Both the position numbers and the translations under genes were made by a program. The notes beneath the pieces were generated by a model that worked only from the letters and a program-made list of their open reading frames with translations, did not search any database and was not told where the DNA came from. Positions 17,297 to 24,950 of a stretch of DNA of 30,116 nt are shown piece by piece (the stretch's first letter is position 1; each line of letters begins with the position of its first letter). This DNA comes from a virus: IMG/VR virus record IMGVR_UViG_3300048557_000158, positions 1 through 30,116 of that record. One strand, given 5' to 3'.

Positions 17297-17899
17297 ATGT
17301 CAAAGGCAATGGGTGCAATGGCTGGGTCTGGTGAGCTTTTAAAAGCAACACTAGAAAAAAAGATGGCTGAAAAAATGGCTTCACCAAAAAAACAATTTAC
17401 TGATATTACTTCTGGTAAAAATTTTGATGCAATGACTCTAGAAGCAAATTCAATGTTGAGTAAATTAAATCCAAAAAATATGCCAGCTAATTTTAATTCA
17501 GCAATGAATAATTTTGGAGATAAGTTTAATGAATATAAAGAAAGATTAAATCCTGTAAATTTTAGAGAAACAGGAGATAAGATGTATCAAGAAATGGTTG
17601 AAGGAGATGACAAAAGAAATGCAATGCAGAAGATGATAACTGATTTAGATAATTTAAAATTTCAAAATACAAATTCTCAAATTCAACAATCTTTAAAAAA
17701 TAGACCTCCAATAAATTTAGATAAATTAGCAGGACAAGATACTATTAATAATTCTGTAAAACAATCTATTGGAAATTTAAATCAATTTACAACTACTGAA
17801 AGTGATATAGTTTTTCCAAGTTATAATGAAATGTCTAGTGAAGCAAAGTTACAAAGAAAGAAAAGAGTTGAAGATTATATGAGAAATTTTGGTAGATAG
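17297..17899 (+). CDS. Hypothetical protein at end of virion operon
   Basis: A 200-residue helical protein rich in Lys, Met, Asn and Phe, with a Gly/Ala/Met-rich start (KAMGAMAGSGELL) and repeated short helices ending in NP turns (SKLNPKNMP near 54-62, ERLNPVNFRE near 82-91). The C-terminus is basic (QRKKRVEDYMRNFGR). The ribosome site AAGGAG is 6 bases from the ATG and overlaps the lipoprotein gene. It is the last plus-strand gene before the minus-strand block. I do not recognise the family. A minor structural part or late regulator is possible. Confidence 0.65.
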   Translation: MSKAMGAMAGSGELLKATLEKKMAEKMASPKKQFTDITSGKNFDAMTLEANSMLSKLNPKNMPANFNSAMNNFGDKFNEYKERLNPVNFRETGDKMYQEMVEGDDKRNAMQKMITDLDNLKFQNTNSQIQQSLKNRPPINLDKLAGQDTINNSVKQSIGNLNQFTTTESDIVFPSYNEMSSEAKLQRKKRVEDYMRNFGR

Positions 17900-17920: not shown

Positions 17921-17950
17921 AGAAGCAGTAAAAAACTAATTACTGCTTCT
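17921..17950 (-). terminator. Terminator of minus-strand block (perhaps bidirectional)
   Basis: A perfect 11-base-pair stem (AGAAGCAGTAA at 17921-17931 with TTACTGCTTCT at 17940-17950) and 8-base loop. Read on the minus strand it is followed by TATTTTTGAT, giving a usable U-run just past the 17960 gene. On the plus strand it is followed by an A-rich run, so it would act there only weakly. Confidence 0.7.
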
Positions 17951-17959
17951 ATAAAAACT

Positions 17960-18181
17960 TTAAGAATATTTATCATTATTTAATGCCCAACTATAAGTGT
18001 CCATTTTTTCTCTAAAAATTTTAGTAGACCATTTTAATTTTTCAAGTTGTTTTTCAATATCAACAGTCTTTGGATCCATTGTAGCTAAATCTTCTAAAGC
18101 TTCTAAGTCTTGTCTATACATTTCTGATAGTGCTAAGTAAAGTTGTAGATCAACAATTTGATCCTTTTTTTGATAATTCAT
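17960..18181 (-). CDS. Small hypothetical protein, minus-strand block
   Basis: A 73-residue, wholly helical-looking protein with alternating Leu/acidic positions (LALSEMYRQDLEALEDLATM, about residues 16-35, then IEKQLEKLKW near 42-51), suggesting a two-helix coiled coil. A strong GAAGGAGT site lies 8-9 bases upstream of its ATG. It is separated from the GHKL-protease gene by 133 bases that hold a terminator-like hairpin, so it may be transcribed partly by read-through and partly from its own promoter, which I could not place. Function unknown; being a partner or regulator of the neighbouring GHKL protein is a guess. Confidence 0.68.
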   Translation of the reverse strand: MNYQKKDQIVDLQLYLALSEMYRQDLEALEDLATMDPKTVDIEKQLEKLKWSTKIFREKMDTYSWALNNDKYS

Positions 18182-18281: not shown

Positions 18282-18300
18282 GAGGGGTTATTAACCCCTC
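18282..18300 (-). terminator. Hairpin after the GHKL-protease gene
   Basis: GAGGGGTTATTAACCCCTC is a near-perfect palindrome (7 GC-rich base pairs with a 5-base loop, or 9 with a 1-base centre), standing out in AT-rich DNA. On the minus strand it lies 14 bases after the stop of the GHKL-protease gene and is followed by only a broken T-run (GTTACTTATT), so it is a partial terminator or attenuator ahead of the 18181 gene. Confidence 0.5.
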
Positions 18301-18314
18301 ATTATCTCCTTTAG

Positions 18315-19808
18315 TTAAACTTTAAGAATTGTTAGCTTTGCACCAATTCTGCATAAACCGTCATAGTAACTTCTACTTAAATGATCGGAAGAATAGTAAT
18401 GACCAAACTCATGTATCAACAGTTCAAGTATCTCTTGTTTGTTTGTATCTAAATCAAACCATTGACGACCAAGAACATTAAAGAACAACTGCAAGTTCCC
18501 ACGACCATAACTTGCAAGGGCCCCTGAGCCGTCATGTACTGTAACTGATAAACTTCCAAAGCCTAATTGTTGATGTAAGAACTTTGCATAGTCAACTACC
18601 TCTTGCATCTTATCATCAACATCAACCTCTTCTGCTCCACTAGTAAATTCAGGTTTTGCATACTTACTAATTTGTCCTGATGGTAAAGCAAAGTCTGAAT
18701 ATTGTTCTCTTGCTTCTCTGACTCTAGACCATGCTTCTTTAGAAAGTTGGCTGCCTGAGATAACTTGTCTCTCATCAGCAAATGCTTTCTTGTTTGCTTC
18801 AATATCAGACATATCATATACAACTGCATCTTCACCAAACTTAGCGTCAATGACAGATTTAATTGCTTCAGCAGAAGATTCTTTTTGCTCTAAGGCTTCT
18901 TGAGCAAAAGTTGTCTGTAATTCCTCTTCTGATAAATCATTATGAGTATGATTTAAAACAAATGCTTTTAACTTTTTAAGATAAGCTGGTTTAACATTGT
19001 CTCTATCTTTAGAAAGAGGAACTTTCTGATTAACATTTATTGTAAAAGGAATATCAGTTTCAACAACTGGTATTCCAAGTTCACAAATATAGTTTGTATC
19101 TAAAGATTTAAACAATTCAATTTCAGTAACTCTTGAACTTGGAGTAAAGTTACCTTCTTCATCAATCGTTACAGTCGGTAAAGTTTCTGTAAATACTGAG
19201 TGTGTGTTTGATCTTTTAATCAAGTTATCATTAATTACAAACTCAACATTTTTTGGTGGAATGATAGTTCTTGATAAATCAAGCAACTCTTCGAACTCAA
19301 CTTTTTTAAGTTTAATCAAACCCTCAAAGATAGAACCTTTTTCAGTTTTAGTTCCAGTCTTAGTTCTAGTGCCATTAGATTTAAAAAGTATAGTTCCTTT
19401 TGTACTAACTATCTTAGCTTCTTTAAACATAGCTAAAGAAGATTTAGTTCCATAAGAAAATCTACCTCTCTTTGAAGTATCGTTAGCTTTGTAGCTTTCA
19501 TTAAATAATGTATAAGCATCAGCTAATTTTTTAAAACCCTCAGGGCTATCATCTTGAACTTTAATCTTTGTTCCTTCAGATGACCATGTAAGTTGAACTT
19601 CACATTTATTAATGTTCTCATCAAAAGCATTAGAGACTAATTCTTTAATGATAAAGATTTTATTTTTATCAGACTGATTTTTTTTCAAACCAATATGATT
19701 AACATTAAACCATGAGTTGTTAGATTTATTACCAACAGATTTTGTCTGCATATCGCTAGAGTTAATCTGACCAGTTTCAACTGGATTTTTCATAACATTA
19801 TTATTCAT
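18315..19808 (-). CDS. GHKL (Hsp90/MutL-type) ATPase fused to metzincin-like metalloprotease domain
   Basis: A 497-residue protein. The N-terminal part has GHKL ATPase motifs: N-box IIKELVSNAFDE (residues 53-64, Glu56, Asn60, Asp63), a D-x-G-x-G counterpart QDDSPEGF (85-92) and a glycine lid-like GRFSYGTKSS (115-124). This fold occurs in MutL, Hsp90, MORC and T4 rIIA. Near the C-terminus LLIHEFGHYYSSDH carries HExxH (His466, Glu467, His470) and a further His476, the spacing of metzincin zinc proteases except that Ser473 replaces Gly. The middle (about 300-440) is acidic and helical. The start has no ribosome site, but a TTGACA-17-TAAAAT promoter lies so close that the mRNA should begin a few bases before ATG. 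Role unknown: defence, anti-defence or chaperone-protease are all possible. Confidence 0.75.
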   Translation of the reverse strand: MNNNVMKNPVETGQINSSDMQTKSVGNKSNNSWFNVNHIGLKKNQSDKNKIFIIKELVSNAFDENINKCEVQLTWSSEGTKIKVQDDSPEGFKKLADAYTLFNESYKANDTSKRGRFSYGTKSSLAMFKEAKIVSTKGTILFKSNGTRTKTGTKTEKGSIFEGLIKLKKVEFEELLDLSRTIIPPKNVEFVINDNLIKRSNTHSVFTETLPTVTIDEEGNFTPSSRVTEIELFKSLDTNYICELGIPVVETDIPFTINVNQKVPLSKDRDNVKPAYLKKLKAFVLNHTHNDLSEEELQTTFAQEALEQKESSAEAIKSVIDAKFGEDAVVYDMSDIEANKKAFADERQVISGSQLSKEAWSRVREAREQYSDFALPSGQISKYAKPEFTSGAEEVDVDDKMQEVVDYAKFLHQQLGFGSLSVTVHDGSGALASYGRGNLQLFFNVLGRQWFDLDTNKQEILELLIHEFGHYYSSDHLSRSYYDGLCRIGAKLTILKV

Positions 19809-19817
19809 AATGTAATC

Positions 19818-19846
19818 ATTTTAGGAAATTGATTCCTTATTGTCAA
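19818..19846 (-). promoter_or_regulatory. Near-consensus sigma70-type promoter for the GHKL-protease gene
   Basis: On the minus strand TTGACA (19846-19841) is followed by a 17-base spacer and TAAAAT (19823-19818). Only 9 bases lie between the -10 box and the ATG at 19808, so transcription would start 2-4 bases before the codon, giving a leaderless mRNA; this explains the missing Shine-Dalgarno. The spacer contains GATTC (19831-19835). Confidence 0.7.
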
Positions 19847-19881
19847 CATCTTTTTTTTTAAGCTTACACAATAGTTCTAGT

Positions 19882-19935
19882 TTGATTCAGAAAATGAATT
19901 TGACTAATTTACGAATCAGAATATTTTTGAATCAA
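19882..19935. promoter_or_regulatory. Inverted repeat around the rightward promoter
   Basis: TTGATTCA (19882-19889) and TGAATCAA (19928-19935) are exact reverse complements 38 bases apart, flanking the rightward promoter candidate; another GAATC lies between them (19913-19917). The arrangement looks like paired operators for a dimeric repressor or a looped site controlling the replication operon. No repressor gene is recognisable nearby. Confidence 0.4.
19900..19927 (+). promoter_or_regulatory. Candidate promoter of the exonuclease/replication operon
   Basis: TTGACT (19900-19905, five of six consensus bases) and TATTTT (19922-19927, four of six) are 16 bases apart, with a start expected near 19934, about 20 bases before the ATG at 19954. 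It faces away from the minus-strand promoter, making this 145-base gap a divergent control region. Confidence 0.5.
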
Positions 19936-19953
19936 TCTTTGGAAGGAGAAATT

Positions 19954-20829
19954 ATGAAACAAATAAAATACAACTCTATTGAACCACATTTAAGTCATGA
20001 CGAATATCATTCTATATCTGAAGCTTTAGGTTCAACAGGTGTAAAGACTATATATAGTAAGAGTGTAGCACACTACAAATTTCAAGAGTTCACAAACAAA
20101 GTTCATTTTGATGTTGGTACTGCTGTTCATGTAGCAGTATTAGAACCTGAGAAGTTTGATTCTGAAGTTATTAAATGTGGTAAAAATCGCATGACTAAAG
20201 AATATAAAGATTTAAAGAAAAATAAACTTAGCAATCAAGTAATAGTTACTGATATTGAATATGATAAATGTTTAAGAATAAGAGATAGTGTTCATAGAAA
20301 AAGTGAAATTAATAAACTATTAGTTAGTGATAATGGACAATCTGAGATGTCTGCTTTTGCTAAAGACCCTAGAACTAATTTAAAGTTAAAGACAAGACCT
20401 GATAGAGCTGTACTTGGGTCTAAAGCAGATATGCTTGTTGATCTAAAAACAACTCAATTAGCTGATGAAGATAGTGTAGTAAAATCAATAGCTAGATATG
20501 GTTATCATATACAAGAAGCTTTTTATCGTCATGTCTGGTCGTTAGCTACTAAGAGAGAAGTATCAAGATTTGTTTTTCTTTTTGTTGAAAAAGAACCTCC
20601 ATTTGCCTGTTGTTTGTATGAAATTCCTGAGCCTTTTTTAGAAGAAGGAGTTGCTTGTATGAATATAGCTTTAGATAGATACAAAGAAGCTGAAGAACTA
20701 GGCGAATACCCTGACTACCCCAATGAAGTCGTGTCTTTAAATATACCTAATTGGGCTTACAAAGAAACTCTTCCACCGGAAGAAATAATATTATTTAACA
20801 AGTCAATCGAAATAGAAGGAGATTTATAA
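19954..20829 (+). CDS. RecE-like PD-(D/E)XK exonuclease
   Basis: A 291-residue protein with the pattern of RecE C-terminal/PDDEXK exonucleases of phages: an N-terminal helix block ending FDVGTAVHVAVLEPEKF (about 52-68), LKTRPD (145-150, Asp150), LVDLKTT (161-167, Asp163 and Lys165) and YGYHIQEAFYRHVW (182-195). These residues form the two-metal site that resects double-stranded DNA to make single-stranded ends for annealing or repair. I start it at the ATG with GGAAGGAG 6 bases upstream; an open frame back to 19840 uses TTG and runs through the promoter. The next gene overlaps its stop (TAATG) and looks like an ssDNA-binding protein, the expected partner. Confidence 0.82.
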   Translation: MKQIKYNSIEPHLSHDEYHSISEALGSTGVKTIYSKSVAHYKFQEFTNKVHFDVGTAVHVAVLEPEKFDSEVIKCGKNRMTKEYKDLKKNKLSNQVIVTDIEYDKCLRIRDSVHRKSEINKLLVSDNGQSEMSAFAKDPRTNLKLKTRPDRAVLGSKADMLVDLKTTQLADEDSVVKSIARYGYHIQEAFYRHVWSLATKREVSRFVFLFVEKEPPFACCLYEIPEPFLEEGVACMNIALDRYKEAEELGEYPDYPNEVVSLNIPNWAYKETLPPEEIILFNKSIEIEGDL

Positions 20830-24656: not shown

Positions 24657-24950
24657 ATGATTTGTTTAATTTGTAGTTCTGAAAAAAGTAAAGTAATAGA
24701 AAGTAGAAAATCTTCCGACTCTACAAGACGAAGAAGAGAATGTTTAGATTGTGGTAATAGATTTACAACACTAGAAAAAGTAATTGAAAAACCAAAAAAA
24801 AGAAAACTAATTCAAAGATCAGAACAGCAATCAAAAAAGAAAGAAAAAAAATATGAAACTTTTAGATCGCAAAGAACAGATAGTTTTGTTGTTCAATCTG
24901 ATTCAGATGAAAAAGATTTTTTAGAAGGTTTTTTAAAAGGTAAAATATAA
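24657..24950 (+). CDS. NrdR-like zinc-ribbon protein lacking the ATP-cone
   Basis: A 97-residue protein whose first 40 residues copy the NrdR zinc ribbon: Cys3-x2-Cys6, a VIESR strand, RRRRECLDC (24-32 region, Cys29 and Cys32) and NRFTTLE (34-40). In NrdR this ribbon binds operator boxes before ribonucleotide reductase genes, while an ATP-cone senses dATP/ATP. Here the ATP-cone is missing and is replaced by a basic, Lys-rich linker and a short acidic tail ([10 protein letters not shown]). It should therefore bind DNA without nucleotide control, perhaps lifting or imposing repression of host nrd genes. No ribonucleotide reductase gene is in the window. Confidence 0.75.

Follow-up and report, generated by a model that had tools for sequence, protein, structure and literature searches.

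We describe here a single-chain phage protein for which sequence comparison and structure prediction support a GHKL ATPase with its transducer at one end and, across a helical linker, a minimal zinc-protease domain of the Wss1 kind with an intact HExxHx5H motif at the other. The pairing is not confined to the phage in which it was noticed: the fusion is a widespread but unnamed family that occurs in phages and plasmids and in the genomes of many bacteria and archaea. The gene is a 497-aa open reading frame, starting with ATG, on the minus strand (18315-19808) of an IMG/VR virus contig of 30,116 bases from a marine phage. The whole contig is the window analysed here, and it also codes for an SU10-type capsid protein, a terminase-like protein, a Toprim/AAA protein and a serine recombinase. 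A preliminary description of this DNA had proposed that a GHKL ATPase and an HExxH zincin coexist in one phage protein, and the proposal is confirmed by the invariance of both sites in 43 viral homologues.

The N-terminal part of the protein reads as a GHKL ATPase in its motifs, conservation, profile and predicted fold. A tail of residues 1-30 (19719..19808; minus strand, as for all parts of the gene), which is unconserved and modelled as disordered (pLDDT < 50), precedes the GHKL (Bergerat) domain of about residues 31-165 (19314..19718). There follow an S5-type transducer (about residues 166-291; 18936..19313), assigned from its invariant residues and an Hsp90/MORC fold match, and a linker that is helical in the model (about residues 292-397; 18618..18935). 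In a 43-sequence viral alignment, E56, N60 and D63 of the N-box IIKELVSNAFDE (residues 53-64), G115, R116, G120 and K122 of the lid RGRFSYGTK (residues 114-122), D86, G91 and, also within the ATPase domain, G158 are invariant, as are E243, G245, P247, Q261, P264 and R269 of the transducer, which carries a conserved QKVPL (261-265). The turn that had been likened to DxGxG stands in part: D86 and G91 never vary, but this G1 box (DDSPEG, residues 86-91) is a non-canonical DDSxxGF variant; a distant homologue (L083) has the canonical form, DNGSG. Pfam HATPase_c_3 matches the 497-aa protein at 3e-5, just below its curated cut-off, and a profile of residues 31-345 finds sacsin and MutL PDB chains (E 0.002-0.4). 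An AlphaFold2 model with the 43-sequence alignment as input (mean pLDDT 84.9, pTM 0.69) predicts a Bergerat-type fold, and its N-terminal two thirds match TRAP1/Hsp90 best in the PDB (E about 1e-12), with MORC3 among the matches listed. The early reading of GHKL motifs at the N-terminus was thus borne out, and the N-box, the lid and the predicted fold are all those of a GHKL ATPase. Hsp90/TRAP1, MORC3, MutL and sacsin likewise combine a Bergerat ATPase with a transducer or middle domain; the phage protein differs from them in its non-canonical G1 box and in its C-terminus, a zinc protease in place of dimerisation, CW, endonuclease or other domains. Compared with prokaryotic MORC and paraMORC proteins, it has the GHKL and S5-like parts; the operon with superfamily II helicase and nuclease genes that marks the paraMORC-type R-M context is not recurrent in most loci, helicase genes adjoining in a few, and the 2008 paper on MORC proteins is silent on peptidases and proteases.

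The C-terminal domain (about residues 398-497; 18318..18617) is predicted, from its model and fold match, to be a minigluzincin-type zinc protease. The motif HEFGHYYSSDH, first read as HExxHxxGxxH with Ser for Gly, does lie near the C-terminus (residues 466-476; 18381..18413), and its conservation and Wss1-like spacing suggest H466, H470 and H476 as zinc ligands and E467 as the catalytic residue. These four residues are invariant in the 43 viral sequences, down to about 30% identity, and HExxHx5H arose in 32 of 200,000 shuffles of the protein. The accompanying label, metzincin-like, fails. Of 117 distinct C-termini, 102 keep the third His at +10; where metzincins have their Gly, 49 of these 102 have Ser and only 3 have Gly, so that the departure from HExxHxxGxxH is a trait of the family; moreover, only 21 residues follow H476, none of them Met, leaving no room for a Met-turn, and the best fold matches are minigluzincins. 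A relationship to astacins was likewise rejected: profile A3 matches myroilysin (5e-4), yet this similarity does not reach past HExxH and has no support from the fold search, and we took it as a shared IHEFGH motif. Modelled alone (pLDDT 93.3), the domain forms a helix, three strands, the HExxH helix and another helix, that is, a predicted minimal alpha-beta3-alpha-alpha fold of about 100 residues as in the minigluzincin/WLM/SprT/YgjP class. Its best PDB match is abylysin (4jiu, E 9e-4; a modest Foldseek TM-score of 0.55-0.59), then jannalysin and selecase; Wss1 is not among the Foldseek matches listed. Pfam returned nothing significant at the C-terminus of the 497-aa protein. Sequence similarity to the Wss1/Spartan type is marginal, with sub-threshold scores of the WLM, SprT-like and YgjP-like models for some homologues and no match for the window protein.

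Wss1 and Spartan, of the WLM and SprT types, are proteases of DNA-protein crosslinks. The zinc ligands of S. cerevisiae Wss1 are H115, H119 and H125, and its closest non-WLM structure is 4JIU (PMC5557861); both Wss1 and Spartan have been assigned to the minigluzincin-type proteases, and DNA activates Wss1 (PMC4559962). The phage zincin shares with Wss1 both the spacing of its putative three-His zinc site, H-x3-H-x5-H, and this closest structure, and with Wss1/Spartan and proabylysin (4JIU) a minimal zincin fold whose third His sits on the loop after the active-site helix. None of these relatives has a fused ATPase, unlike the phage protein. Wss1 recruits a separate one, the AAA ATPase Cdc48.

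Both domains are under purifying selection. Comparison with four homologues of 84-87% identity gave dN/dS values of 0.15-0.18 (ATPase half) and 0.11-0.23 (zincin), and residues 1-30 are not so constrained (0.9-1.3). Since neither domain varies at its key residues across the 43 viral homologues, chance is excluded as the source of the motifs, and the alignments indicate two intact, co-conserved active sites that are rarely separated.

A search for the same fusion in other phages, which the preliminary description had called for, found it in most relatives. The full profile recovered 69 loci from IMG/VR, a result biased toward the fusion because the query partly used the HExxH motif. The ATPase half alone found 262 related stretches. 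The 80 best were retained, and among the 76 new records that these supplied, 69 had HExxH, 3 were cut by contig ends and 4 lacked it, so that the zincin is present in 69 of the 73 complete matches in this best-scoring set. With the same ATPase-half query, bacterial and archaeal genomes gave 43 loci, 40 of them with an in-frame HExxH and a somewhat variable place of the third His. Among the remaining cellular loci, the zincin of L123 is in another frame and L104 is truncated; at L116 an in-frame stop interrupts a reading that is otherwise full-length as far as the zincin. Homologues devoid of the HExxH residues, which would have weakened the original proposal, are therefore few, these residues being conserved in nearly all. 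Carriers range from marine phages of about 30 kb to megaphages of 485 kb, plasmids (Bosea, Methylibium, Rhodovastum and, distantly, Picosynechococcus), bacteria and archaea. A tblastn search of 50,697 phage records found one recognisable homologue, in an uncultured 485-kb phage. Sequences from viruses and from cells are intermingled in the tree, a pattern which suggests, though it does not prove, that mobile elements carry many of the cellular copies. In the virus searches the zincin of this family was found only together with the ATPase; the sole candidate for a standalone viral relative (L185) is a different protein.

Five members (L220, L222, L244, L250 and L071), of 367-415 aa, lack the zincin and have a CPxCxx motif at or near their end. 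L071 and L220, taken as their representatives, group in a single nested clade (support 0.993), and absence of the zincin is on this ground a derived loss. No detached HExxH zincin was found in the examined flanks of L220, L244 and L250, and the idea of a split gene was dropped. The CPxCGR/CPxCGK-type end of this clade looks as if a small zinc knuckle had taken the zincin's place. Because one clade works without the zincin, the ATPase has a role of its own.

Within its clade the 497-aa gene is organised as a self-contained unit. Both flanking phage genes, at 17297-17899 and at 19840-20829 (a DUF3799 PDDEXK-like nuclease), lie on the other strand, and the opposite-strand placement noted at the outset thus holds. 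So does the near-consensus promoter of its own: a sigma-70-type TTGACA-17-TAAAAT (19818..19846, minus strand) lies directly upstream of the ATG, ending 9 nt 5' of it, and probably yields a leaderless transcript. Promoter-like sites across the region are no more numerous than expected by chance; the hexamers and position of this one are conserved in four diverged homologues (L003, L005, L006 and L007), while the spacers differ. Just 3' of the stop codon, the hairpin GAGGGGTTAATAACCCCTC (18282..18300, minus strand) is a probable terminator kept in relatives: its stem is retained in L005, L006 and L003, where both arms have changed together and pairing is preserved, and L007 has a different hairpin, with a T-run, after the stop. 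It is this conserved promoter and the hairpin after the stop that mark the gene as an independent unit in its clade. The cassette form is not universal: among the marine phages of a second clade (L020-L042), the gene sits inside a same-strand gene string. Between stop and hairpin (window 18282-18314, minus strand), AAGGAG is followed by ATG AGG GGT TAA, a possible 3-codon mini-ORF in the terminator region whose ATG is not kept in L003. Downstream lies a 73-aa ORF (17960..18181, minus strand) with relatives in some sister phages and no match in a Pfam search, and 3' of it a terminator-like hairpin was read from the sequence (17921..17950, minus strand). Elsewhere in the window, 24657-24950 (plus strand) codes for a protein of 97 aa whose N-terminus is a zinc ribbon of the NrdR type (Pfam 5e-15), with no match to the ATP-cone.

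Other phage GHKL proteins bear on the family. At two loci a further GHKL-like gene adjoins a member (L106 and L059); a general rule of paired GHKL genes was not adopted on so few cases. The L106 neighbour (L106:5020-6357, minus strand) belongs to phrog_6077 and is SprT-like at its C-terminus, with HEEAH, and its relative CDS0173 of Moorella phage MTATph1 has a zincin-like end with HETLH; a protein of an Exiguobacterium phage aligns with CDS0173 along 96% of its length. This is a separate family with a weak profile match to the 497-aa protein, and most of its members, such as Pseudomonas phage Ab18 ORF34, consist of the ATPase without a zincin, whereas at least two, CDS0173 and the L106 neighbour, have an HExxH zincin-like domain at the C-terminus. 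The SprT-like or HExxH end recurs in L106:5020-6357 and L264:4986-6323, with one such protein in the cultured phage MTATph1, and the zincin-bearing members of phrog_6077 make up a second phage architecture of GHKL plus zincin. The L059 neighbour (L059:6445-7947, plus strand) belongs to phrog_8203, common in Yuavirus phages. Here a lid-like GxxGxG segment precedes the ExxxN helix, an order that suggests a circularly permuted GHKL fold, and the zincin-like end is a degenerate EExxH; the phrog_8203 protein of Pseudomonas phage AN14 (L262:6998-8173) is annotated 'hydrolase, metallopeptidase'.

How the two active sites might work together is suggested by better-known relatives. Our preferred model, which we give somewhat less than an even chance, is a single-chain ATPase-protease whose clamp closes on DNA or a DNA-protein complex, whereupon the Wss1-like zincin cuts the trapped protein, likely a host or defence target. 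ATP binding would dimerise the GHKL halves, as in other GHKL proteins; the chain would close, clamp-like, on its substrate; closure would position or unmask the zincin; and hydrolysis would reset the clamp. Both the ATP-dependent closure of a dimer and the clamp-gated proteolysis are what we infer by analogy. A link to DNA may be drawn from the likeness to MORC, MutL and Wss1 and from DNA-metabolism neighbours, which are the PDDEXK nuclease and the Toprim/AAA protein in the window and, elsewhere, dUTPase and DNA helicase genes together with RecA-, ThyX- and dTMP-kinase-like genes by sequence reading. Against the model stand the clade that works without a zincin, the non-canonical G1 box, the modest TM-score of the abylysin match and the absence of Wss1 from the fold matches listed. 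Given the host-type promoter and stand-alone cassette in this phage, the target would most likely be a protein of the host, DNA-bound or part of its defence, that stands in the phage's way.

The main rival, which overlaps with the clamp model and which we consider unlikely but deserving of weight, is a counter-defence or superinfection-exclusion factor like rIIA (PMC7824862), in which the GHKL part would recognise a complex of the host or of a rival phage, the zincin would be one among several exchangeable effectors at the C-terminus and no DNA would be clamped. RIIA proteins are among the viral fold matches, the stand-alone cassette of this clade resembles an accessory gene, and T4 rIIA, likewise a phage GHKL protein, weakly resembles the ATPase region in a profile comparison (hhalign E 4e-4, probability 35%). 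The likeness ends there, T4 rIIA being a 725-aa protein with a different C-terminus, and where papers on phage GHKL proteins describe a variable C-terminal domain in rIIA, that of the present family is conserved across very distant phages. It is improbable that the protein is a chaperone-protease for folding or virion maturation, an Hsp90-like ATPase handing structural proteins to the zincin. Its closest PDB folds are indeed Hsp90/TRAP1, and jumbo phages have other chaperone-peptidase pairs, MoxR with a vWA-metallopeptidase (PMC7824862); yet head and tail genes are not consistent neighbours (head genes are near in one contig, L054), and many conserved neighbours, where present, are DNA-metabolism or unknown genes.

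Equally improbable is a defence-signalling component captured by phages that may act in a protease cascade, a reading prompted by three Picosynechococcus plasmids (L083, L084 and L085) with the gene order diadenylate cyclase (DAC) - GHKL/zincin - CHAT protease (Pfam DAC 2e-31, CHAT 6e-37). That string resembles an undescribed defence or cell-death operon, and points to a defence-like role in the cyanobacterial plasmid branch only: these homologues are just 24-27% identical, and the neighbourhood is absent from the phage and other cellular loci examined. PADLOC had no match for the window protein and, for homologues, only weak ATPase-region matches to TmtA. Slighter still is the likelihood that the zincin is structural or inactive and the protein works as an ATPase only. 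The existence of the zincin-less clade and the degenerate EExxH at the same place in phrog_8203 would fit, but H466, E467, H470 and H476 are invariant across the 43 diverse viral members, and the invariant E467 in particular counts against a purely structural zinc site, which would not need a catalytic Glu.

Pfam, NCBIfam, PADLOC and PHROGs gave only domain-level or weak matches to the GHKL-zincin protein. The initial impression that no phage protein with this pairing had been described holds as far as our literature search goes, which found no paper on it, but the fusion itself is widespread among homologues. The family spans phage genomes of about 30 to 485 kb as well as bacteria and archaea, yet lies outside the family libraries searched. 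The best-known ATP-dependent proteases are built on AAA+ unfoldases, whose rings drive Lon, Clp and FtsH. We raise, tentatively and as rather less than probable, the broader idea of a separate class of ATP-driven proteases, in which a GHKL clamp of the Hsp90/MORC type takes the place of such rings and, in one chain with a Wss1-like zincin, serves phages widely to strip proteins from DNA; the class may have originated more than once, in this family and in some phrog_6077 proteins. If true, proteolysis would here be powered or gated in a different way, by an Hsp90/MORC-type ATPase joined to a zinc protease. The parallel architecture sits in a cultured phage, Moorella phage MTATph1, as a 'hypothetical protein', which makes the idea testable now. 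Should the protein serve to clear DNA of bound proteins, it would correspond, as one chain in phages, to the pairing of Wss1 with Cdc48.
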